Shown here piece after piece: positions 1-8,737 of a stretch of 8,737 nucleotides of DNA (its first letter is position 1; each line of letters starts with the position of its first letter). A program made the translations under genes and the position numbers. The stretch spans positions 1 through 8,737 of the forward strand of contig CAMLRH010000101.1 in assembly GCA_946482375.1 (NCBI GenBank). Reading direction: 5' to 3'. The stretch is from an uncultured Caulobacteraceae bacterium (lineage in GTDB: Bacteria; Pseudomonadota; Alphaproteobacteria; Caulobacterales; Caulobacteraceae). The notes under the pieces were generated by a model that had not been told where the DNA came from, searched no databases, and saw only the letters and a list, made by a program, of their open reading frames with translations.

Positions 1-1642
1 GGACGATGTTCTGCGTCATAAGCGGCCGCCAGACCGCCGCGCCCGAGACATCCCAACCGAGGTCACGCGGGATGCCGCCCTGCATCCGCAGCGCCTGCAC
101 CACGGCGGTGTCGGCGAACCACAGGTGGTTGAGGTTGCCGGTGAGCCGCAGCTGCGGCGTCACGTCGAAATCTGCCCCGGCGCCGACCAGCACCGTGCCG
201 GGGTTGTTGAAGTTGCTCTGCCCCTCCTCCTTCGAGGAGCGCAGGGAGTTGAGGATCCCGTTCCTGCCGCTGACCCCGATGGCGCGCCCGCCACCGGCGA
301 AGGGGATCGACTGGCGGACCCAATAGCTCGTGTCGGCGCCGGCGAACTGCGGGTTCTCGAAGATGGCGTCGAAACCGCGCTCGACATCGTCGTAGGGATC
401 GTCGTCGCCCGAGGCGTAGAGGAAGGCCCCGCGCACTCTTATCCAGTCGAAATCGTAGGAGGGTTCCACAGCGGCGAACCAGGCGCGGATGTCGGTGGGT
501 CGGCTGGTGAAGGTCGAATTGCGGTCCTCGCCGACTACGCCATACGCGGACCCGGACAGGTTCCAGCGCCCGATCCGCCCGTCGGCGCTGTAGCCGAGGT
601 AGAGGGCGTCGTAGTCGCGGCTCCTGATATCGCCGATCAGCGCCGGGCGGGCCGGAAAGCCGTTGTCGTCGACGTGGATTTCGCCCGCCTCGCGGTTGGC
701 GTTCCAGGCCAGCGTCACCTGCGAAGTCAGGCCCGTGAACGGCAGGTCCTGCCGGTAGAGGTTGGCCAGGACGACGTAGTCCTTGCGGACCGACTGGGTG
801 ACGTCGTTCAGGCCCGAGTTGGTGTCCTTCTCCAACCGCGCGAAGGCGGCCAGGTTGTACTGCCAGCGGTTGTTGTCGCGGTTGCCGAAGAAGCGGACGC
901 CGAGCTGGTTGTCCTGGAACAGGAAGCCCCGGAAGTCCGACGAGAACGGCTGGATGCCCACCCGCACGCTGTCGAAGTCGTACCGGGCCGAGACGTCGCG
1001 CAGGTGATAATCGACGAAGGCTTCCTGCACGCCGACCCAGAGGTCGCGGCGCTCGGAGTCCTTGCTGGACCGCACCGACAACACGCGCTTCTCCGGCACG
1101 TCGGCGTAGTTGTAGTTGAAGGCCAGCGTCAGCCGGGCTTCGAACTCGGGGGGCTTGTAGGCGGTCGATCCCTTGATCAGCGCCGCCCCGGCGATGAAGG
1201 TCTGGGCGACGACGAGGCTTTCGGTGCGGCCGAAGACGTCGAGGCTGCCCGGTTCCTCGGTGGTCTGGTTGCCGACGGGGATGGGGAAGGAACGCGGCTC
1301 GATCATCGTGTCGGACACTCCCGTCAGCGACAGGAAGAGGTCGTCCGTCCCCCAGATCGGCCGATCGCCCTTCAGCGTGTTCTGGTTGTAGGGATCCCAC
1401 CAGCGTTCGCGCACGCCGATGCTCTCGACCAGCCGCCAGCGGTCGGGGACCGGAAACTGGTCGGCCGGGAAGGCTTCCGGCGGCGGCGCGGATACGGCGC
1501 CGGGGTTGTCCTGAACCACGGGCTCCGGCAGGTCGGGCCGCGTGCCGGGCCGGTCACGGCCTTCGAGAATTTCCTCCTGCGCCCTCACCGGCGCCGCCTG
1601 CAGCGCGGCGATCAGGGCCAGAGCGAAAACCGCTACCCTCAT
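1..1642 (-). CDS. Secreted, probable outer-membrane beta-barrel protein (3' end beyond window)
   Basis: An open frame runs without a stop from an ATG at 1642 to the left edge, giving at least 547 residues; the C-terminus is missing. Residues 1-21 form a clear Sec signal peptide (MRVAVFALALIAALQAAPVRA, cut before QEE). A Pro-rich stretch (about 31-66) follows, then a distinctive segment at about 80-98 containing WWDPYNQN and LKGD. The rest alternates polar and hydrophobic/aromatic residues in short strands, for example TPQLRLTGNLNHLWF near the left edge, with many Asp/Asn/Gly turns, as in outer-membrane barrels. I do not recognise the family. There is no TonB box or plug that I can see. It is the third gene of an operon with a multihaem cytochrome and a haem-binding lipoprotein. 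Its ATG overlaps the previous stop (ATGA) and has only a weak CAGGG Shine-Dalgarno, so it is probably translationally coupled. A porin partner for the cytochrome is inference; another surface or transport barrel is equally possible. Confidence 0.75.
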   Translation of the reverse strand, partial: MRVAVFALALIAALQAAPVRAQEEILEGRDRPGTRPDLPEPVVQDNPGAVSAPPPEAFPADQFPVPDRWRLVESIGVRERWWDPYNQNTLKGDRPIWGTDDLFLSLTGVSDTMIEPRSFPIPVGNQTTEEPGSLDVFGRTESLVVAQTFIAGAALIKGSTAYKPPEFEARLTLAFNYNYADVPEKRVLSVRSSKDSERRDLWVGVQEAFVDYHLRDVSARYDFDSVRVGIQPFSSDFRGFLFQDNQLGVRFFGNRDNNRWQYNLAAFARLEKDTNSGLNDVTQSVRKDYVVLANLYRQDLPFTGLTSQVTLAWNANREAGEIHVDDNGFPARPALIGDIRSRDYDALYLGYSADGRIGRWNLSGSAYGVVGEDRNSTFTSRPTDIRAWFAAVEPSYDFDWIRVRGAFLYASGDDDPYDDVERGFDAIFENPQFAGADTSYWVRQSIPFAGGGRAIGVSGRNGILNSLRSSKEEGQSNFNNPGTVLVGAGADFDVTPQLRLTGNLNHLWFADTAVVQALRMQGGIPRDLGWDVSGAAVWRPLMTQNIV

Positions 1643-3561
1643 TTGCCCTGGCAGACGTTCTGCTCGGACGAGCCGAGGAAGGGATTGAACGGGCAGTTCA
1701 CGTATCGCAGCCGCGCCGAGCCGCCCGGCAGGCTGACGACGATCTGGTCGGCCCGGATGCCGGTCGCCGCATTGCCGATGCCGCCGACCTTCAGCCCGGC
1801 GTTATGGGCGCCGAGGAAGGACGTCATGTCGTCCTGGTCGATGCCGTCGCCCGAAACGCCGATGGCCCCAACCAGCGTTGAGCCGCGGTAGACCGGCACG
1901 CCGCCGGGGAAAATCTGGATGCCGTTGCCCAACCGGCTCTGGTTGGTGCAGGTCGCCGGTGCGTCGGTCCCGACACCGCTGCCGACGAAGCTCAGGTGCT
2001 GGCCAAGCTGGGCCGCGACCATCCTCGACTGCATGCCGGTTGCAAACGGACTCCACTGCGAGATCGGCTGCGACAGCGGGCCTTCAGGGCGGCCGACTTC
2101 GCCATCGGGGAAATACGGTCGGTGCAGGTTGCCGATGGCGCGCGCCGAGAACGCCGTGCCGCCGGTCAGCGCATTGCCGTCGTTCAGGAAGTTGCGCGTG
2201 CGGGTCAGGTATGCCCGCACCCCGGTGTCGGCATCGGCGTTCAACGCCGCCGCGGTAAAGGGACCGGAGAAAAAGTTCGCCGTCCGCGCCTTCTGCACCG
2301 AAACGTCGATGCCGAAGATCGGCGCGTCGGGCGAGCGGACGACACCCAGCACCGCGCCTCGCGTGTCCACGACCGAGATCGTCACCTGTGCGCGGCTGTC
2401 GAGCGGGCGGCGGATTTGGGCGCGCGCCTTGCTCATGATTGCGAAGGCTTCTTCCAGCAGCGCCCGGGTTTCGGCGGCGGTCAACGCTGATCCCACGTCG
2501 GCGGCGTCAGTCCCGGCCTTCGGCGCAAAGCGCGGCGTCCCCGAGCCGTTGGTCAGGATGAAGGCGTCGGGGTGGTTGAACTCGCCGCCGGTCGCCTTGC
2601 GCACGCCCGACGCCTCGGTTCCGTAGGCCTGACCGGCGACCACCGTCGCGCCGGCGTACCCCGGCACGGCGACCAGCGATCCCGACAGCGTGCCGAACGC
2701 GGCCGCAGAGGACGGATTGCTCTGCAGGGACGACGAGGTCGCATCGCTGTAGCGGAGCGTCGTGCCGTCGACGCTGACGCGGTCGGCCTTGATTTCGGTC
2801 GAGGCGCCGAAGCCGGAGGTCCCGGCCAGCGCGATATGCTCCTCGGCGTCGTTGTCGATGTCGCTGACGTTCGCATCGAAGCCGTAGTCGCCCTCGGCGA
2901 TCACACCGACCGCGCCGACCACGACGCCGTTCTTGTAGAGCGGGAAGCCGCCCGGATCGGCCGCCAGCCCCAAGGGCGAGCGCTTCGGCCCGATGAAGGC
3001 GCTGGCGCCGCCGCCGGCGGCGTAGCGTCGGGTGACGTCCGAGCAGGGCAGCTGACTGAACTGCACGCCGTAGAGCGGCCCGGCCTCCAGCCCGGCCGTG
3101 GCGGGGCTCGGCGGGAAGTGTTCCTGCACGATCATGCTGGCTGTGCGGGTAGAAAACGCGTTGCCGCCCGAGGACAGATAGGCGCCGGTGACAGCCTTGG
3201 CGATCGCCGCCGCCGTGGCGGGGACGACCGCGCCCTGCACATCCACGTTACCGTTCGGGCCCGGGCGGATGGTCACGGTCGTCGGCGCGCCGGTCATGGA
3301 AAAGACCGCCAGCACGTTGCCGACGCGGTCGGTCACCGCGATCACCGCCGGACGTCCGCGCGCCGTCGCCTCCTGTGCGGCCTGGGCGATGACCTCCTGC
3401 ACGTCGCCTGTGCTCAAAGCCTCGGCGGCGGGGACGGAATAGACGCTGGCGGGCGGGCCCGGAGGCGTGGGCGGCGGCGCTTCACCGCCCCCGCCTCCGC
3501 CACCGCCTCCCCCGCCGCAGGAAGCCAGCAGCAGGGCGCTTGCGAACAGCAGCCGCTTCAT
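1639..3561 (-). CDS. Lipoprotein with two HbpS/GlcG-like haem-binding repeats
   Basis: This 640-residue protein starts with a lipoprotein signal (MKRLLFASALLLASC; lipobox LASC, Cys15) followed by 11 glycines and a Pro-rich linker to about residue 37, which would tether a globular part to a membrane. Two units resembling the HbpS/GlcG (DUF336) family follow, at about 44-250 and 358-595. Each has the family's hallmark of a Pro-Val/Leu-Tyr strand leading into VGA(V/I)GV (206-220 and 555-569). HbpS proteins bind haem and some act in redox sensing; GlcG relatives have poorly known roles. Cys623 and Cys637 could form a periplasmic disulphide. The start is supported by GGAGG seven bases upstream and by the lipobox. 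A much longer upstream extension of this frame is a shadow of the cytochrome gene. It lies between the cytochrome and barrel genes with four-base overlaps on both sides. Haem binding here is inferred from the family. Confidence 0.85.
   Translation of the reverse strand: MKRLLFASALLLASCGGGGGGGGGGGEAPPPTPPGPPASVYSVPAAEALSTGDVQEVIAQAAQEATARGRPAVIAVTDRVGNVLAVFSMTGAPTTVTIRPGPNGNVDVQGAVVPATAAAIAKAVTGAYLSSGGNAFSTRTASMIVQEHFPPSPATAGLEAGPLYGVQFSQLPCSDVTRRYAAGGGASAFIGPKRSPLGLAADPGGFPLYKNGVVVGAVGVIAEGDYGFDANVSDIDNDAEEHIALAGTSGFGASTEIKADRVSVDGTTLRYSDATSSSLQSNPSSAAAFGTLSGSLVAVPGYAGATVVAGQAYGTEASGVRKATGGEFNHPDAFILTNGSGTPRFAPKAGTDAADVGSALTAAETRALLEEAFAIMSKARAQIRRPLDSRAQVTISVVDTRGAVLGVVRSPDAPIFGIDVSVQKARTANFFSGPFTAAALNADADTGVRAYLTRTRNFLNDGNALTGGTAFSARAIGNLHRPYFPDGEVGRPEGPLSQPISQWSPFATGMQSRMVAAQLGQHLSFVGSGVGTDAPATCTNQSRLGNGIQIFPGGVPVYRGSTLVGAIGVSGDGIDQDDMTSFLGAHNAGLKVGGIGNAATGIRADQIVVSLPGGSARLRYVNCPFNPFLGSSEQNVCQGK
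3484..3516 (-). repeat. Eleven-codon polyglycine tract (GGN repeat)
   Basis: Eleven consecutive Gly codons follow the lipidated Cys codon of the lipoprotein gene. They mix GGC, GGG, GGA and GGT, so the tract is not one pure triplet repeat, but it is simple enough for slippage to change its length. As protein it is a flexible tether of the kind seen after lipobox cysteines. Confidence 0.8.
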
Positions 3562-4916
3562 TTCAGCCCCTCCACGGCGACCGCGACCCGCTTCAGCGAG
3601 GCGCGGAATTCCAGCGGGCGGTAGGCGTTGGGGTCCTTCACAGCAGCATAGGCGGCGTCGAGGTCGGGGCGGATGGCATCGACGGCGGCGCGGTCGGCCT
3701 GGCGCGAGTCCGCCAGCGCGTTGAGCAGGGTGTCGGCGGCCATCACCGCCTGCGCGCTTCCCGCATAGTCGGTGTAGCGAGGCGCCAAGGCGCCCGCGAG
3801 CACGTCGTCCAGCATGGCGAAGGTCTCGGCGCGGCTGAAGGCCTGGCCGGCGAAGGTGTTGGAGAGCGCGCGAGAACTGTTCGCGAGCCTGTCCGCCGCC
3901 GCCACAGCGCTCGACCGATCCCTGGCCAGCGCGGCGTGGAAGGCGCGGGAGTCCTTTTCGAACCGCTCGGCCTGCCCCGGCGCGGCGGCGCGGGCGGCGG
4001 CCGAGAGCATGATCATGTTCTCGTCGTTGAACGGCGGCATCCCGACGGGGATCGGACGGCCGGGATTGTCCAGCGCCGTCGGCCGCGCCTTGGGGTCGTC
4101 GTAGATGCGCCGGTGACAGCTGTGGCAGTCGAAGAAGTAGAACTCGGGGAAGGCGCCCTCCTGCCCCTTGTCGGACGAGTAGAGGGTCAGGGCGCGCTCC
4201 AGCGCCATGGCCTGCCCGACCGCCCAGGTCTTCATCCCGCCCGGCGCCTGCTTGCGGGCCACGTAGTCGGCGTCGATGTCGTGGTGGCGTTGCAAGGCGG
4301 TGAAGAGGTCGAGCTCGAACGACACGCGCGGATGCCCCGCCGCCATCATCCGGTGGTCGACGAACTGGCCCGGTCCCGACCCGCCGAAGTGGCAGTTCAG
4401 GCAGACCGCCGCGCGGGCTTTCGGGTCGTCCAGCGGGACCATGCCGCGAGCCACGTTGTCGGCGTGGCTGGCGCCGACCGTGTAGTGGCTGGCCAGCCAG
4501 CCTTCCGAACCGCCGTGGCAGCTCTCGCACCCGACGCCGTCGGAGATCTGGAAGCGCTCACCCCGTCGCGCCGCGACATCGGCGTGGCAGCCGAGGCAGG
4601 CTGGGGCGCTCTGTGCGGGACCAAGGCCCAGCCGATTGGCGATGGCCTGCGCCCGGGGTTCGGTCAGCACCCGCCAGGCGCGGCTGTGGGCCCCGGAGGG
4701 GCTGGATTCGTCCTGCCAGGTGACGAGTTCGTTCTGGCGGACGATGGCGCCGTCGGGCACCTGACGGCCGTGGCAGGTAGAGCCGGCGCAGGTGGCGACT
4801 CCCTCATGGCGCACATCCTTGGTCGTGACCGCCCTCGAAGGCGACACCAGCATCAGCGCCGCAAGGACGATCGCGGGCCAGCACCAGCCTGCGCCTGATC
4901 CCGCCAACGCCCGCAC
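3558..4916 (-). CDS. Periplasmic multihaem c-type cytochrome (five haem motifs, cytochrome c554-like)
   Basis: From the GTG at 4916 the protein has 452 residues. Residues 1-29 are a Sec signal peptide with hydrophobic core WPAIVLAALMLV and likely cleavage after SRA. Five c-haem attachment sites are visible: one CX4CH (CAGSTCH, 43-49) and four CXXCH (CLGCH 107-111, CESCH 130-134, CLNCH 172-176, CHSCH 264-268). The GVGCESCHGG context and many extra histidines suit bis-His haems as in the cytochrome c554 family. The C-terminal 170 residues are Ala-rich, probably helical, and lack haem sites. The role is presumably electron transfer in the periplasm; partners are unknown. The frame stays open to a GTG at 4976, but that would put 20 extra residues before an already complete signal peptide. 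The 4916 start has AGGGGG five bases upstream. It is the first gene of the operon, and its stop overlaps the lipoprotein start (ATGA at 3561-3558). Confidence 0.85.
   Translation of the reverse strand: MRALAGSGAGWCWPAIVLAALMLVSPSRAVTTKDVRHEGVATCAGSTCHGRQVPDGAIVRQNELVTWQDESSPSGAHSRAWRVLTEPRAQAIANRLGLGPAQSAPACLGCHADVAARRGERFQISDGVGCESCHGGSEGWLASHYTVGASHADNVARGMVPLDDPKARAAVCLNCHFGGSGPGQFVDHRMMAAGHPRVSFELDLFTALQRHHDIDADYVARKQAPGGMKTWAVGQAMALERALTLYSSDKGQEGAFPEFYFFDCHSCHRRIYDDPKARPTALDNPGRPIPVGMPPFNDENMIMLSAAARAAAPGQAERFEKDSRAFHAALARDRSSAVAAADRLANSSRALSNTFAGQAFSRAETFAMLDDVLAGALAPRYTDYAGSAQAVMAADTLLNALADSRQADRAAVDAIRPDLDAAYAAVKDPNAYRPLEFRASLKRVAVAVEGLK
3569..3573 (-). promoter_or_regulatory. Ribosome binding site of the HbpS-like lipoprotein gene
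   Basis: The minus strand reads GGAGG here, seven bases before the ATG at 3561. It lies inside the end of the cytochrome gene. It fixes the lipoprotein start in an open frame that would otherwise extend about 970 bases further upstream. Confidence 0.75.
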
Positions 4917-4983
4917 CCCTGCCCCCTTCGACGACCCCGGTTGAGCAAGCCTAACAAGCTTCGCGGATTGCGCCACTCGTTTC

Positions 4984-4995
4984 CCCCCATGGGGG
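4984..4995. repeat. Perfect 12-bp palindrome upstream of the cytochrome operon
   Basis: CCCCCATGGGGG is a perfect palindrome between the aminotransferase remnant (stop at 5001) and the cytochrome start at 4916. It could be an operator or a short GC hairpin. No T-tract follows it on the minus strand, so it is not a convincing intrinsic terminator. It may also be chance in GC-rich DNA. Confidence 0.35.
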
Positions 4996-5000
4996 AACAG

Positions 5001-5171
5001 CTAAAGCACGCGGCGCCCGACCTCGCAGAACCGGTCGATGTCGTCGGCATCGTGATAGAGCCCAAGGCCGATGCGCAGCCCGTCGTCACGGACATCGGTG
5101 ATGACTATGCGCGGCCAGGTGAAGCCGCCATGGTGCATCGGCAAACGCTTTTGAGAACAGATACTTGAAGC
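5001..5171 (-). pseudogene. C-terminal remnant of a class-V PLP-dependent enzyme (kynureninase-like)
   Basis: Directly after the kynA stop, and in the same frame, 56 codons run open to a TAG at 5003-5001. The peptide looks like a real C-terminus: it has MHHGGFTWPRIVITDVRDD, then LRIGLGLYHDADDIDRF, then a final EVGRRVL. The pattern of (L)RIGLGLY, then an acidic DADDIDRF turn and a last helix, is typical of the C-terminal small domain of class-V aminotransferase-fold enzymes, which include kynureninase. The PLP-lysine domain is absent, and only about 50 of roughly 400 residues remain. There is no ribosome binding site I would trust, though an internal ATG at 5138 could begin a 45-residue product. 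A kynureninase-like gene next to kynA would make sense in tryptophan breakdown, so I infer a deletion of the gene body. The exact subfamily is uncertain. Confidence 0.6.
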
Positions 5172-5963
5172 TCAAAGCTGAGTCCTCAGGGACCACAGCT
5201 CGGGAAAGCAGCGCCGCTCCAATGTCCTAGCCAGATAGCTCACGCCCTCGGTCCCGCCGGTGCCCGGCCGTCCGCCGATGATGCGTTCGACAGTCAGCAC
5301 GTGCTTGTGGCGCCAGGTGATCAGCGCGTCGTCGAGGTCCACCAGCTTCTCGGCGAGCTGGTAGAGCTCCCAGTACTTGCGGGGGTCGCGATAGACGGTG
5401 AGCCAGGCGGCCTCAACCTCCGGCGAGGGCGCGTAAGTCTGTGAAACATCACGCCCAAGCACTTCATCCGACAGGGAAATCCCGTGCTTCGGGAGTTGCC
5501 GCAGCGCCTCGTCGTAGAGGCTCGGCGTTTCCAACGCGCTCTTCAGTTCCTCCAGCGCCTGAGGCCGTTCCTGATGGAAGCGCAGGAAACTCGCGTCCTT
5601 GAGACCCAGCAGGTATTCGAGCCGCCGGAACTGGTGCGACTGGAAGCCGGAGCTGGTCCCCAGCGCCTCGCGGAAACTGAGGTAGTCGGCGGGCGTCATG
5701 GTGGCCAGCACGTCCCACGACAGCGTCATCACCGTCTGGATGCGCGAGACCCGCGCCAGCGACTTGTAGGCCGGTTCGAGGTCCCCCCTGCGCACCAGGT
5801 CGCGCGACAGCAGGACCTCGTGGATGATCTCCTTCAGCCACAGCTCCTTGGTCTGGTGCATGACGATGAACAGCATCTCGTCGTGCCGGTCGCTGAGCGG
5901 CTGCTGGCAGGCGAGCAGGTCGTCGAGCGCGAGATAGCCGGCGTAGGTGACGGGGGTGGTCAC
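5172..5963 (-). CDS. kynA: Tryptophan 2,3-dioxygenase
   Basis: This haem enzyme opens the indole ring of L-tryptophan with O2 to give N-formylkynurenine, the first step of the kynurenine pathway, in the cytoplasm. The 263 residues fit the short bacterial form. Family signatures are present: MHQTKELWLKE with the substrate-pocket His36, SGFQSHQFRRLE (105-116), and WRHKHVLTVERIIG followed by GTGG (217-237), in which His221 matches the proximal haem ligand. The C-terminus (FPELWSLRTQL) is complete. The start is a GTG with a strong GGAGG six bases upstream. No formamidase or intact kynureninase lies in the window; only a class-V PLP enzyme tail follows it. The enzyme is therefore either served by pathway genes elsewhere or left from a reduced cluster. 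It is divergent from the small gene at 6086 across 122 bases, where no clear promoter could be read. Confidence 0.97.
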   Translation of the reverse strand: MTTPVTYAGYLALDDLLACQQPLSDRHDEMLFIVMHQTKELWLKEIIHEVLLSRDLVRRGDLEPAYKSLARVSRIQTVMTLSWDVLATMTPADYLSFREALGTSSGFQSHQFRRLEYLLGLKDASFLRFHQERPQALEELKSALETPSLYDEALRQLPKHGISLSDEVLGRDVSQTYAPSPEVEAAWLTVYRDPRKYWELYQLAEKLVDLDDALITWRHKHVLTVERIIGGRPGTGGTEGVSYLARTLERRCFPELWSLRTQL

Positions 5964-5969
5964 TTAAAA

Positions 5970-5974
5970 CCTCC
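5970..5974 (-). promoter_or_regulatory. Ribosome binding site of kynA
   Basis: The minus strand reads GGAGG, then TTTTAA, then GTG. The strong site with six-base spacing supports the GTG at 5963 as the start. Confidence 0.8.
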
Positions 5975-6085
5975 GGGGGAAAGGCCGCATAACTTCGCCC
6001 ACCCTCGCCGCGCCTGCAAACACGCCAACTCCGAGGCATACCGAGGGTCGCGGAACCCGGGAGGTGAGCCCAGGGTTTTCACTTC

Positions 6086-6265
6086 ATGGACAAGCGGCCA
6101 GAGGAAGCCCGCAGCTTCGTCGCCGACGAAGCCGAGCGGGCCGCCGCCGACCTCAGGGCCGGCATCGAGCGGCTGAAGTCCAGCTTCCGCGACTACCGCG
6201 CCCGCGTGGAGCGCGACCATGCCGATGACGACGACGGGCACGACGGGCACAGCTCCTCCGCCTGA
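6086..6265 (+). CDS. Small charged helical protein with Asp/His-rich tail, function unknown
   Basis: A 59-residue open frame begins with ATG at 6086 and ends with TGA at 6263-6265. A stop 21 bases upstream with no other start between fixes the start. Third positions are overwhelmingly G or C, as in the neighbouring real genes, which is the main reason to call it coding. Residues 6-43 are rich in Ala, Glu and Arg (for example VADEAERAAADLRAGIERLK) and should form one amphipathic helix. The tail (44-59) is acidic and has four His residues (DHADDDDGHDGH), which could bind a metal; that is speculation. There is no signal peptide or membrane segment. The ribosome binding site is weak (AGGG ten bases upstream). 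It is divergent from kynA and ends 12 bases from the convergent SDR gene. I do not recognise the family. Confidence 0.6.
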   Translation: MDKRPEEARSFVADEAERAAADLRAGIERLKSSFRDYRARVERDHADDDDGHDGHSSSA

Positions 6266-6277
6266 GACGCGGGCGAA

Positions 6278-7030
6278 CTAGACCGTGTAGTTCAGCGCCA
6301 GACGGCCGCCGTCGGGATAGATGGTCTGGCCTGTGATGTAGCTGGCCTCGTCGCTGGCCAAAAAGACGGCCACTTTCGCGATTTCTTCCGGCTCGCCAAG
6401 CCGGCCTAACGGCGTACGCGAGAGGATTCGCCCCTTCGCCTGGGCGTCGGTCATTACGCCCTTGAGGATGTCGGTGGCGATGGTGCCGGGGCCAATGGCG
6501 TTGACGCGTATGCCGTGCGGCGCGAGGCCGAGCGCCATGGCCTTGGTGAGTTGCGCGAGCCCTCCCTTCGAGGTCACGTAGGCAAGCTGGGCGGGAATGG
6601 CGACGACCGCATTGATCGAACTCATATTGACGATCGAGCCCTTCAGCCCGTGCTCGACCATGCCCCGCGCCACCGCCTGGCCGACGACGAAGGCGGCGCG
6701 CAGGTTCACCGCCAGCACGCGGTCGAAGTCCTCCACCTCGGTGGTGAGGATGTCGCCGGCGGCGAGGATGCCGGCGTTGTTGAGCAGGAGGTCGATGGGC
6801 CCGATGGCTTCGGCGGCCTGAGCCACGGCGTCGCGCGCGGCAGCCGCATCGGCGATATTGCAGGTGATGCCGACCGCCTTGCCGCCGATGGCGCGGGCGG
6901 TTTCGGTCACGGCGGGGTCGATGTCGATGAGCGCCACGTCCGCGCCCTCTGCGGCGAAGGCCTCGGCGCAGGCGCGGCCGATGCCGTGGGCGGCGCCGGT
7001 CACCAGAGCGCGGCGGCCCTCCAGCCGCAT
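6278..7030 (-). CDS. Short-chain dehydrogenase/reductase (classical SDR)
   Basis: An NAD(P)-dependent oxidoreductase of 250 residues, the usual length for classical SDRs. Visible motifs are the nucleotide-binding TGAAHGIG (11-18), Asp36 at the end of the second strand (favouring NAD over NADP), NNAG (84-87), Asn109, and the catalytic Ser138 and Tyr151-X3-Lys155 (YVTSK). After these come the PG motif at 181-182 and the usual C-terminal ITGQTIYPDGG. The substrate cannot be told from sequence. The start is either GTG at 7033, overlapping the upstream stop as GTGA, or ATG at 7030, overlapping as TGATG. I chose the ATG because GGAAG lies six bases before it. It is the second gene of a coupled pair with the glyoxalase gene, which hints at a shared aldehyde or hydroxy-acid role, but that is inference. 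The protein is cytoplasmic, with no signal or membrane segment. Confidence 0.93.
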   Translation of the reverse strand: MRLEGRRALVTGAAHGIGRACAEAFAAEGADVALIDIDPAVTETARAIGGKAVGITCNIADAAAARDAVAQAAEAIGPIDLLLNNAGILAAGDILTTEVEDFDRVLAVNLRAAFVVGQAVARGMVEHGLKGSIVNMSSINAVVAIPAQLAYVTSKGGLAQLTKAMALGLAPHGIRVNAIGPGTIATDILKGVMTDAQAKGRILSRTPLGRLGEPEEIAKVAVFLASDEASYITGQTIYPDGGRLALNYTV

Positions 7031-7470
7031 CACCAGCTTCCGACGTTGGGCATCGAGGTCCAGGGCTCGGCCGGCGGCAAGGACTTGCCCTTCTGCAGCA
7101 GCTCAACGGAGATGTTGTCGGGCGAGCGGACGAAGGCCATGTGGCCGTCGCGCGGGGGCCGATTGATGGTCACCCCGCCGTCCATCAGCCGCCGGCAGGT
7201 CGCGTAGATGTCGTCGACGGCGTAGGCCAGGTGGCCGAAGTTACGGCCGCTGCCGTAGTCCTCGCCGTCCCAGTTGTAGGTCAGCTCGACGAGCGGGGCC
7301 CGGCGCTCTTTGGCCAACTCCACGTCATCCGGCGCGGCCAGGAAGACGAGCGTGAAGCGGCCGCCCTCGTTGTCGATTCGCGAAACCTGGGCCAGCCCGA
7401 GCTTGTCGCAATAGAAATCGAGGGAGGCTTCCAGGTCACGGACCCGGACCATGGTGTGCAGATACTGCAT
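7030..7470 (-). CDS. gloA: Glyoxalase I (lactoylglutathione lyase), VOC superfamily
   Basis: Glyoxalase I isomerises the hemithioacetal of methylglyoxal and glutathione to S-lactoylglutathione in the cytoplasm. The 146 residues start with [20 protein letters not shown], very close to the start of E. coli GloA. The four metal ligands of the family can be placed: His5, Glu62 (in VELTYNWD), His80 (in GHLAYAVDD) and Glu123 (in SVELLQKG). It has a C-terminal extension of about 20 residues ([16 protein letters not shown]) beyond the catalytic core. No glyoxalase II gene is in the window. It is the first gene of a two-gene operon with an SDR whose start overlaps this stop. AGGAG lies ten bases before the ATG. 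A related VOC enzyme acting on another thiol adduct is the main alternative. Confidence 0.9.
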
Positions 7471-7668
7471 TTTCGGAAGTCTCCTGTGACCTGACCGCCA
7501 CTCTACCGACGCGGCCGTACGACTTGTTCCATCCTGTCGGGGAATTCATTTGCGCGCCACCCGCAGTGCGTACGATATCGAAACCCTGTTCAGGTTCACT
7601 GCCGGCTTCCGCGTGGCGCTCCCCCTGTTCCGCGCCCGGTCGCCGCCAGTCCCCCGGGGTTCGATCCG
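7471..7668. other. Divergent intergenic region between gloA and the efflux adaptor gene
   Basis: This 198-base gap must hold the promoters of both divergent transcripts. A possible plus-strand promoter is TTGCGC (7550-7555) and TACGAT (7571-7576), with a 15-base spacer that is shorter than usual. No clear minus-strand promoter or strong operator repeat stands out; the CGATATCG palindrome (7573-7580) is short. The small open frames here look like shadows. Confidence 0.3.
7481..7485 (-). promoter_or_regulatory. Ribosome binding site of the glyoxalase I gene
   Basis: The minus strand reads AGGAG ten bases before the ATG at 7470. The spacing is slightly long but acceptable, and no other start in the frame fits the conserved N-terminus. 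Confidence 0.6.
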
Positions 7669-8737
7669 ATGCGTGTGAAATCGTCCTACGCGTTCGCAGG
7701 CGGCATCCTCGTCGTTGTCGCGCTGATCTTCATTGTCGGCGGCCTGTTCGGCCGTAAGGACCGCGAGGCGACGGCCGCCGAAACGCGCCAGGCCGGCGCC
7801 ATGAAGCAGGCCGACCCGCTGGTCCAGACGGCCCTGATCGCGGAACAGATCAAGCCCTACGCGGTCGTGATGCGGGGCCGCACCGAAGCCGCTCGCGCGG
7901 TCGTCGTCCGCGCCGAGACGGCCGGCGTCGTCGCCTCCACCCCGGCCCAGGAAGGCGCCTTCGTCGCTAGGGGCCAGGTGCTGTGCCGGCTGGCCGTCGA
8001 CGCCCGCCAGGCGACCCTCGACCAGGCCCGCGCCAACCTGAAGTCCCGCCAGCTGCAACGGCAGGCCTCCGCCAAACTGGCCGAGAAGGGCTATCGCTCG
8101 GAAACGCAGGTCCTGCAGGATCAGGCCAACCTCGACGCCGCCACCGCCGCCGTGCAGCAGGCCGAGGTGGCGCTGGAACAGATCAACATCCGCGCCCCCT
8201 TCGCCGGAGTGTTCGACCGCCGCGACGCCGAGGTCGGGACCTACCTCGCGCCCGGCCAGCCCTGCGGCACGGTGATCGAACTGAACCCGCTGCTAATCGT
8301 CGGCAACGTCTCCGAGACCGAGACCACCGCCGTCCGTCAGGGCGCGTCGGCGACCGCCCAACTCGTCTCCGGCGATCTGCTGGCCGGACGCGTTTCCTAC
8401 GTCGCCCGCGACGCCGATCCGCAGACCCGCACCTACCGAGTCGAGATCACCGTGCCGAATCCGCGTGCGGTCCGCTCCGGCCTTTCGGCCGAGGTCCGGC
8501 TCGCGACCGGGGCCGGACCGGCGCACCTCGTGCCTGAAACGGCGCTTGTGCTCGACGCGGCCGGCCGCCAGGGCGTGCGCCACGTGCTGCCCGACAACCG
8601 CGTCGCCTTCATGCCGGTGACCGTCATCGACGAGGACCCGCAGGGGGTCTGGGTGTCGGGCCTGCGCGGTCCGGTGCGGCTGATCACCGTCGGCCAGTCC
8701 TACGTCTCCGAAGGCCAGAAGGTCAGGGTCGCCGCCC
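7669..8737 (+). CDS. RND efflux periplasmic adaptor (membrane fusion protein), 3' end beyond window
   Basis: The open frame gives 356 residues from ATG at 7669 to the right edge with no stop. Residues 8-27 are one hydrophobic segment (AFAGGILVVVALIFIVGGLF) that anchors the protein in the inner membrane. The HlyD/AcrA-type order follows. The first lipoyl half is at about 80-110 (VRAETAGVV, then EGAFVARGQVL). An alpha-helical hairpin covers about 111-172, with heptad-like Ala/Leu/Gln helices. The second lipoyl half is at about 174-206 (IRAPFAGVFDRR, then VGTYLAPGQP), and a beta-barrel domain follows (about 208-290). Such proteins link an RND pump to an outer-membrane channel to export drugs, metals or other compounds. 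The pump gene is expected just downstream, outside the window. The Shine-Dalgarno is weak (GGGG nine bases upstream), but the membrane anchor right after the ATG supports the start. Which substrates are moved cannot be told. Confidence 0.93.
   Translation, partial: MRVKSSYAFAGGILVVVALIFIVGGLFGRKDREATAAETRQAGAMKQADPLVQTALIAEQIKPYAVVMRGRTEAARAVVVRAETAGVVASTPAQEGAFVARGQVLCRLAVDARQATLDQARANLKSRQLQRQASAKLAEKGYRSETQVLQDQANLDAATAAVQQAEVALEQINIRAPFAGVFDRRDAEVGTYLAPGQPCGTVIELNPLLIVGNVSETETTAVRQGASATAQLVSGDLLAGRVSYVARDADPQTRTYRVEITVPNPRAVRSGLSAEVRLATGAGPAHLVPETALVLDAAGRQGVRHVLPDNRVAFMPVTVIDEDPQGVWVSGLRGPVRLITVGQSYVSEGQKVRVAA

Follow-up and report, generated by a model that had tools for sequence, protein, structure and literature searches.

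Inspection of the letters alone of an 8,737-nucleotide stretch of DNA from an uncultured Caulobacteraceae bacterium (GenBank assembly GCA_946482375.1, contig CAMLRH010000101.1, positions 1 to 8,737; this whole stretch is called the window here) had suggested a minus-strand module of three genes, encoding a five-haem cytochrome, a lipoprotein with duplicated HbpS-like domains and an outer-membrane barrel. We examined this module in the window and in related genomes. Sequence, Pfam matches and structure models bear out the three assignments of this preliminary description: the genes for cytochrome, lipoprotein and barrel lie consecutively on the minus strand, and the two ATGA overlaps that join them can be read directly in the window (Table 1).

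Table 1. Features of the three-gene module and their positions in the window
Feature	Position	Strand	Basis
Pentahaem c-type cytochrome; Sec-type N terminus, c554-like haem part, helical C-terminal part	3558..4916	-	PF13435 and haem motifs
Haem motif 1, CAGSTCH (CX4CH), C63-CH69	4770..4790	-	Cys/Cys/His invariant in 28 aligned relatives
Haem motif 2, CLGCH, residue 127	4584..4598	-	CXXCH
Haem motif 3, CESCH, residue 150	4515..4529	-	CXXCH
Haem motif 4, CLNCH, residue 192	4389..4403	-	CXXCH
Haem motif 5, CHSCH, residue 284	4113..4127	-	CXXCH
Cytochrome C-terminal part, residues 240-472, EfeO/EfeM/imelysin-like fold	3561..4259	-	Predicted model
ATGA overlap, cytochrome/lipoprotein	3558..3561	-	Read in the sequence; exact ATGA in 33/68 loci
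Lipoprotein with two HbpS/GlcG-like (PF03928) domains, poly-Gly behind the lipobox Cys	1639..3561	-	Pfam and self-alignment
Lipobox LASC, Cys15	3517..3528	-	C15 invariant in 23 aligned sequences
ATGA overlap, lipoprotein/barrel	1639..1642	-	Read in the sequence; exact ATGA in 14/65 loci
Outer-membrane beta-barrel, about 18 strands	1..1642, cut by the window edge (547 of 585 residues)	-	AlphaFold model
Predicted extracellular loop 7, 72 residues, conserved	197..412	-	Alignment of 19 barrels; mostly pLDDT <50

The cytochrome frame runs from a GTG at 4916 to a stop at 3558, with a second in-frame GTG at 4976; residues are numbered in the 472-residue frame, and the start at 4916 fits because the database copy has 452 amino acids. 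With 43.8 bits against a cut-off of 20.8, the protein belongs to the Pfam family Cytochrome_C554 (PF13435), and its haem part is also related to cytochrome c554 of Nitrosomonas (PDB 1bvb, E 8e-4). What sets it apart from the c554 family, with which it shares this haem part, are its five haem motifs, one of them CX4CH, and some 230 C-terminal residues modelled with an EfeO/imelysin-like fold. Of 76 related cytochrome open reading frames (ORFs), 75 have four CXXCH motifs and a fifth motif whose spacer is three or four residues long. A Foldseek search with the cytochrome model gave no match at E <1, and a second look revealed EfeO/imelysin-like folds for the C-terminal part alone; the haem part is poorly modelled, and AlphaFold2 places no haems. 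The C-terminal part contains no HXXE motif, the metal-site motif of the EfeO/imelysin fold.

The lipoprotein is a member of PF03928, the family of HbpS, GlcG, EfgA and the PduO C-terminal domain (87.4 bits, cut-off 25, three matched stretches). Its halves align with each other at 31% identity across 185 residues; the domain duplication is therefore real. Tandem duplication, export and, in the window's group, lipidation set it apart from its PF03928 relatives, as does a domain 2 without His where PduO has its haem ligand. The window lipoprotein has no CXXCH haem motif. Among matches with a named source, the nearest (89% identity) belongs to a Caulobacteraceae bacterium.

The window ends inside the barrel gene, and the barrel was scanned against families without its last 38 residues; in this form it matched no Pfam family, porin families included (E up to 0.1). 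Its N terminus is of the Sec type (Sec-type N termini were judged by eye throughout). The AlphaFold model has 18 strands, with a mean predicted local distance difference test (pLDDT) score of 57 and about 45-82 in the strand regions. This fold is shared with the alginate exporter AlgE and OprD/Occ channels, from which the barrel differs by an identity of 13%, the lack of a Pfam match to those families and the long, conserved loop 7. Mean identity of loop 7 to the window barrel is 0.81 in 19 barrels, compared with 0.56-0.88 for the strands. The predicted outward loops L3 and L7 are conserved above the remaining outward loops, which is uncommon in a general porin. No polysaccharide genes were noticed beside the barrel in the annotated loci.

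Gene order in relatives and a decahaem gene beyond the window

A scan anchored on the cytochrome yielded 497 confirmed relatives, and counts of loci rest on the best 80 of these, fetched with flanks of up to 10 kb. Genes in these loci are our own ORF picks, some of which start too far upstream and give some false negative gaps. Neighbourhood in relatives had been proposed as a check on the module, and it holds: the lipoprotein gene lies behind the cytochrome gene in 77 of the 80 loci and the barrel gene behind the lipoprotein gene in 73 (one an edge fragment), always in the same order and on the same strand, with all misses at contig ends. The order of the three genes is thus kept more than by chance. 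Loci without an exact ATGA mostly have an in-frame start no more than about 20 bases from the stop, so the tight spacing is conserved and not the overlap itself.

In all 72 loci with sequence past the barrel (72/80 overall), clustering of neighbouring ORFs and subsequent tblastn revealed a gene for a large cytochrome directly after the barrel gene. Because the window ends within the barrel gene, it could not be seen in the preliminary description, whose statement that only five haems are present is wrong for the system: this next gene adds 10 motifs. The encoded protein has about 1,340 residues and carries 10 CXXCH motifs in 61 of 62 ORFs; the remaining one is truncated (L032, a locus in which the barrel gene is apparently frameshifted). 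Three scanned copies combine class III/c7-type haem domains with C-terminal LVIVD repeats.

Distribution in Alphaproteobacteria

Co-occurrence was assessed in 142 alphaproteobacterial genomes, evenly spread around a centre (G001) picked as a module holder. Weak matches were left out of these counts, namely those to the lipoprotein (10 genomes, at most 27 bits), the decahaem protein (3 genomes, at most 42 bits), the pentahaem cytochrome (9 genomes, at most 52 bits) and the FHA-decahaem protein introduced below (7 genomes, at most 30 bits). Barrel and decahaem protein occurred in the identical eight genomes, one of which is the chosen centre (8/0/0/134; Fisher p 3e-13), and the lipoprotein in these eight, with one additional contig-edge copy. 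In all eight holders, the genes for lipoprotein, barrel and decahaem protein (the triad) are adjacent.

The pentahaem cytochrome was present in the eight triad genomes and five more. Its gene lies directly 5' of the lipoprotein gene in G001; in the other seven triad genomes it is 1.3 kb upstream on the same strand (n = 1), convergent (n = 2) or on another contig (n = 4). Since the triad is adjacent throughout and the pentahaem gene often lies elsewhere, we regard lipoprotein, barrel and decahaem protein as the core and count the pentahaem cytochrome as a partner, encoded in the same operon in the window's group. That the proteins are made in a fixed ratio, as proposed from the overlaps, is an inference: in six of seven more distant triad genomes the pentahaem gene is convergent to the triad or on another contig.

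At the level of orders, the barrel was found in 56 of 246 genomes of Sphingomonadales, the order of G001 (55 strong matches and one of 22 bits; centre included), and in 20 of 249 genomes of Caulobacterales, the order of G002 (best matches at least 881 bits; centre and one previously known holder included). A phylum-wide draw of 349 genomes contained the decahaem protein in six (at least 2,335 bits), all of them genomes already encountered in this analysis, and fragments of at most 42 bits in nine others. As this draw added no new holders, the module looks confined to Alphaproteobacteria as far as sampled.

An inner-membrane gene set accompanies the module

Six class-level loci have, ahead of the triad and on its strand, genes for a protein with FHA, membrane and decahaem parts, a b-type cytochrome-like protein and a flavoprotein; in a seventh (L097), these inner-membrane genes run on the same strand into the lipoprotein gene, where the contig ends. 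The FHA-membrane-decahaem protein has about 560-690 residues and 10 CXXCH motifs, and the copy in L091 contains an FHA domain and class III/c7 haem domains. For the flavoprotein (about 795 residues), the L091 copy showed pyridine-nucleotide-disulphide, two cyclic-nucleotide-binding and 4Fe-4S domains, the last above the cut-off, and the family matches are of the thioredoxin-reductase type. Pentahaem cytochrome and FHA-decahaem protein co-occur in the 142 genomes (12/1/1/128; p 2e-15), also outside the genomes with a barrel (4/1/1/128).

Twelve carrier genomes, selected for holding the pentahaem cytochrome, comprised 4 Caulobacterales, 7 Sphingomonadales and 1 Rhizobiales. The FHA-decahaem protein, the flavoprotein and, by tblastn, the b-type cytochrome-like gene were found in 12/12, and the three genes stand side by side in the fetched carrier loci. 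In 9 of the 12, the set shares a contig with the cytochrome gene and lies convergent to the outer-membrane operon, no more than about 10 kb away; G006, G007 and G008 have it on a different contig. A phosphodiesterase-like gene follows the set directly or a few genes on in every carrier (tblastn; L098:1225-2073 and equivalents in L099-L109). One of its products was scanned and matched cyclic-nucleotide phosphodiesterase models below their cut-offs. Near a flavoprotein with two cyclic-nucleotide-binding domains, this gene could possibly provide a local switch.

Two loci without the triad (L092:8347-13309 and L093:6419-12522) have another outer trio near the same inner-membrane genes, consisting of pentahaem cytochrome(s), a five-haem protein of 604-641 amino acids and a probable barrel of 535-538 amino acids without a Pfam match. 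The one five-haem protein scanned, that of L092, reached 36 bits with the ExtKL model (cut-off 250). From these two loci, it looks as if the inner-membrane set has an exchangeable outer end.

Type II secretion carries surface cytochromes in Shewanella. Six of 12 class-level loci (L081, L083, L086, L088, L090 and L096) have an ATPase gene of this pathway close to the pentahaem gene; five of the products are T2SSE proteins with an MshEN domain according to Pfam, and that of L096 was found by tblastn.

A possible electron route to the outer membrane

We consider it about an even call that these genes belong to an envelope electron-transfer system, of whose outer-membrane end the window shows three genes. 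The earlier idea of a conserved envelope electron module has gained ground through the decahaem gene and the inner-membrane set, both of which the window's own genome presumably carries, as its relatives do. From gene content, order, conservation, co-occurrence, protein families and haem-motif counts we infer a route in which cofactor loading, protein location, the flow of electrons and its direction, and the acceptor are all putative. The cytoplasmic flavoprotein, with its two cyclic-nucleotide-binding domains and 4Fe-4S clusters, would take electrons from NAD(P)H, and the b-type cytochrome-like membrane protein would pass them over the inner membrane to the FHA-membrane-decahaem protein. From there, the periplasmic pentahaem cytochrome and the decahaem LVIVD protein would take over transport to the outer membrane. 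The terminal site may consist of the 18-strand barrel and the HbpS-type lipoprotein, from which an acceptor at or beyond this membrane would receive the electrons.

Tentatively, these parts might amount to a complete and undescribed route that starts from cytoplasmic NAD(P)H, is switched by cyclic nucleotides and ends at the outer membrane of aerobic Caulobacterales and Sphingomonadales. Three cytochromes would supply 25 covalent haems, and a haem-free HbpS-type lipoprotein would accompany the terminal barrel; the proposal as a whole is plausible if short of probable. Both orders are common in oligotrophic water and soil and, to our knowledge, are not known for extracellular electron transfer. 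If the proposal is true, bacteria not known as electroactive could reduce metals, metalloids or other surfaces, and envelope electron transfer would gain a new layout, a dedicated chain between NAD(P)H and the outer membrane with flavoprotein input instead of a quinol oxidase. The module is present in named type strains (e.g., L024, L025 from Sphingobium boeckii DSM 25079, and L080 from Blastomonas natatoria DSM 3183), which makes a genetic test feasible.

It seems that no such electron wire has been described in these soil and freshwater bacteria. Among the open-literature papers listed, no title or beginning of an abstract described such a cluster, which is not proof of its being undescribed, and nothing joined LVIVD with multiheme. 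The abstract and Results of one survey do not name the cluster (PMC11475568), the portions consulted of another paper contain nothing on it (PMC10654088), and in the portions consulted of a third the match for DUF336 is a table row on DUF3365 (PMC9230427).

Several observations weigh against an electron route of this kind. The best fold matches of the 18-strand barrel model are the substrate channels AlgE and OprD, and a barrel of this size is probably too narrow for a multihaem protein in the way that MtrB, with 26 strands, holds MtrA; a cytochrome inside the barrel is therefore doubtful. Too narrow a barrel had been named beforehand as an argument against the module, and the 18-strand model makes part of this argument good. 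We saw no lipid-anchored cytochrome: pentahaem and decahaem proteins look like plain Sec substrates, an obvious lipobox is absent, by eye, from 62 decahaem N termini, and PF22113 stayed below its cut-off in the three copies scanned. The lipobox pattern is also absent from 7/7 class-level copies of the lipoprotein, of which the one in L089 starts too far upstream to judge and the one in L082 has LQGC by eye. The match of two decahaem copies to the ExtM model, in itself a point in favour, covers short stretches and, with 66-74 bits, stays far below the cut-off of 800, and the b-type cytochrome-like protein of L091 has a weak b561 match (PF01292, 21 bits; cut-off 30.1). Type II secretion genes occur in 0/80 of the closer loci (flanks of L001-L080) compared with 6/12 at class level, so this pathway was rejected as a general partner for the window's group. 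Finally, shared ancestry inflates the class-level p values for co-occurrence.

Alternative explanations

The main rival to electron transfer to the outer membrane is a substrate porin combined with a periplasmic reductase, which we hold to be rather unlikely. Here, the barrel would admit a small anion (an oxyanion, an organic acid or an iron chelate), and the multihaem proteins would reduce it in the periplasm with the same inner-membrane electrons, so that the outer membrane is not crossed. An 18-strand barrel that probably cannot hold a multihaem protein would suit this arrangement. A further hint comes from strain KR-99 (L062), which holds the module and has an NADH-dependent, membrane-associated tellurite reductase whose gene is not assigned in the part of the report used here (PMC5488091). 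This suggestive link is weak because the best mass-spectrometry match of the enzyme is GroEL and its subunits, of 62 and 55 kDa in that part of the report, are not tied to module genes (PMC5488091). On the other hand, no catalytic haem site was identified, the barrel matches no Pfam porin family, and the conservation of its outward loops points to a partner or a highly specific gate.

Electrons might also enter by the outer-membrane parts, with an extracellular donor such as Fe(II), Mn(II), sulfur or other cells feeding them and NAD(P)+ being reduced. Every part is reversible in principle, many module hosts are aerobes, and aerobic hosts would presumably profit from extra donors. However, no oxidase was noticed among the annotated locus genes (a subset of the ORFs was scanned), and the flavoprotein is of the thioredoxin-reductase type, which normally oxidises NAD(P)H. 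We therefore regard this direction as improbable.

A complex for haem delivery or haem sensing had been named as a further option; at the outer membrane, its haem binder would be the HbpS-type lipoprotein. PF03928 does include haem binders, HbpS and the PduO C-terminal domain, and a CcmF/NrfE-type haem lyase gene lies near the inner-membrane set, within the fetched stretch, in 5/12 carrier loci. The haem ligand of the PduO C-terminal domain is His18 in the section of the report drawn upon (PMC4923194). In a weak alignment of 12 bits, this residue corresponds to Met376 in the second domain of the lipoprotein, which is invariant in 23 relatives, and the first domain has Ala65 at this position by eye. 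This weakens the option, and sensing of haem would need neither 25 haem motifs over three cytochromes nor an NAD(P)H-type flavoprotein, which leaves it very improbable.

That the genes are unrelated neighbours, brought together by chance or slow rearrangement, would fit the convergent or separate pentahaem gene in 6/7 class-level triad relatives and has a negligible probability, given a triad that is adjacent in 8/8 class genomes, a decahaem gene that adjoins the barrel gene in 72/72 loci, and a pentahaem cytochrome and an FHA-decahaem protein that co-occur even without the triad.

Relation to known electron conduits

The envelope electron-transfer system proposed here most resembles the ext cluster of Geobacter sulfurreducens. 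According to the parts of two reports consulted, extHIJKLMNOPQS brings together a non-cytochrome lipoprotein, a porin-like protein, a pentahaem cytochrome, ExtM, ExtN and inner-membrane parts (PMC5877670, PMC6148476), and a passage of the latter advises searches for conduits to consider non-cytochrome components as the exposed lipoprotein (PMC6148476). A lipoprotein without haem, a barrel, a pentahaem cytochrome and a large multihaem cytochrome likewise share one locus in the relatives of the window, the large cytochrome lying outside the window itself. As far as the ext cluster is covered in these excerpts, both systems also have a 10-haem cytochrome (ExtN in Geobacter), and the large cytochrome of the module is a distant relative of ExtM. 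The inner-membrane b-type cytochrome/Fe-S part of ext may have its analogue in the set of the 12 carriers, where the 4Fe-4S domains of the scanned flavoprotein exceed the cut-off and the b-type protein stays below it.

The two systems also differ. The module's lipoprotein is HbpS-like, whereas that of ext is a rhodanese in the same excerpts; none of the ext models matches the window barrel or its pentahaem protein (E up to 0.1); LVIVD repeats accompany the 10 haem motifs of the large cytochrome; and the input consists of a flavoprotein with cyclic-nucleotide domains and the FHA-membrane-decahaem protein. Membership in the ExtM, ExtN, ExtO and ExtKL equivalogs was rejected, as the decahaem copies fall far below the cut-offs (23-35 bits for two copies with the ExtN and ExtO models, cut-off 200) and the pentahaem protein matches no Ext model. 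The module would thus work like an ext-type system without being a member, because its parts come mostly from other families.

Distant relatives of the decahaem protein occur as stand-alone cytochromes of 762-854 amino acids with 10-12 CXXCH motifs in five loci (L110-L114). The two that were scanned are ExtM relatives below the cut-off (169-227 bits). Their neighbours vary, with a haem-lyase gene in L110 and, by eye, NapC-like and cytochrome bc genes in L114, and point to no particular substrate.

The likeness to MtrCAB noted in the preliminary description stands for the layout but not for the families. As in MtrCAB, MtoAB and PioAB, genes for a multihaem cytochrome and an outer-membrane barrel are adjacent. 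Membership in the Mtr/Mto/Pio systems was rejected, since the barrel has no MtrB or PioB match in Pfam and NCBIfam (E up to 0.1) and the haem pattern differs. The AlgE/OprD-like barrel model, with a mean pLDDT of 57, has 18 strands, compared with 28 predicted for MtrB in the excerpt of the ext report used (PMC5877670), and the absence of MtrB from the fold matches listed excludes nothing. The pentahaem protein is not a decahaem cytochrome of the MtrA/DmsE family (TIGR03508, 16 bits, cut-off 192.2; five haem motifs). Nor was a surface lipoprotein cytochrome of the MtrC type found, the lipoprotein having no CXXCH and the decahaem protein no obvious lipobox.

Neighbouring genes

Upstream of the module, a minus-strand open stretch at 5001-5135 ends in HHGGFTWPRIVITDVRDDGLRIGLGLYHDADDIDRFCEVGRRVL and a stop, without a full gene around it and without a Pfam match (E up to 0.1). 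By eye, it resembles the remnant of a gene's C-terminal end, possibly of an aminotransferase gene. It is followed by genes for a tryptophan 2,3-dioxygenase (5172-5963, minus strand; TIGR03036 364.4 bits, just below the cut-off of 390.7), an SDR oxidoreductase (6278-7033) and a glyoxalase/VOC-family protein (7030-7470), the last two on the minus strand with ends that overlap by four bases. A gene for an RND-efflux periplasmic adaptor on the plus strand (7669-8737; TIGR01730 155 bits, cut-off 94.9) reaches the window end. Among the relatives, a cluster of 11 loci has a ShlB/FhaC-type two-partner secretion transporter gene upstream of the module on the opposite strand (L017:7981-9759; one copy scanned).

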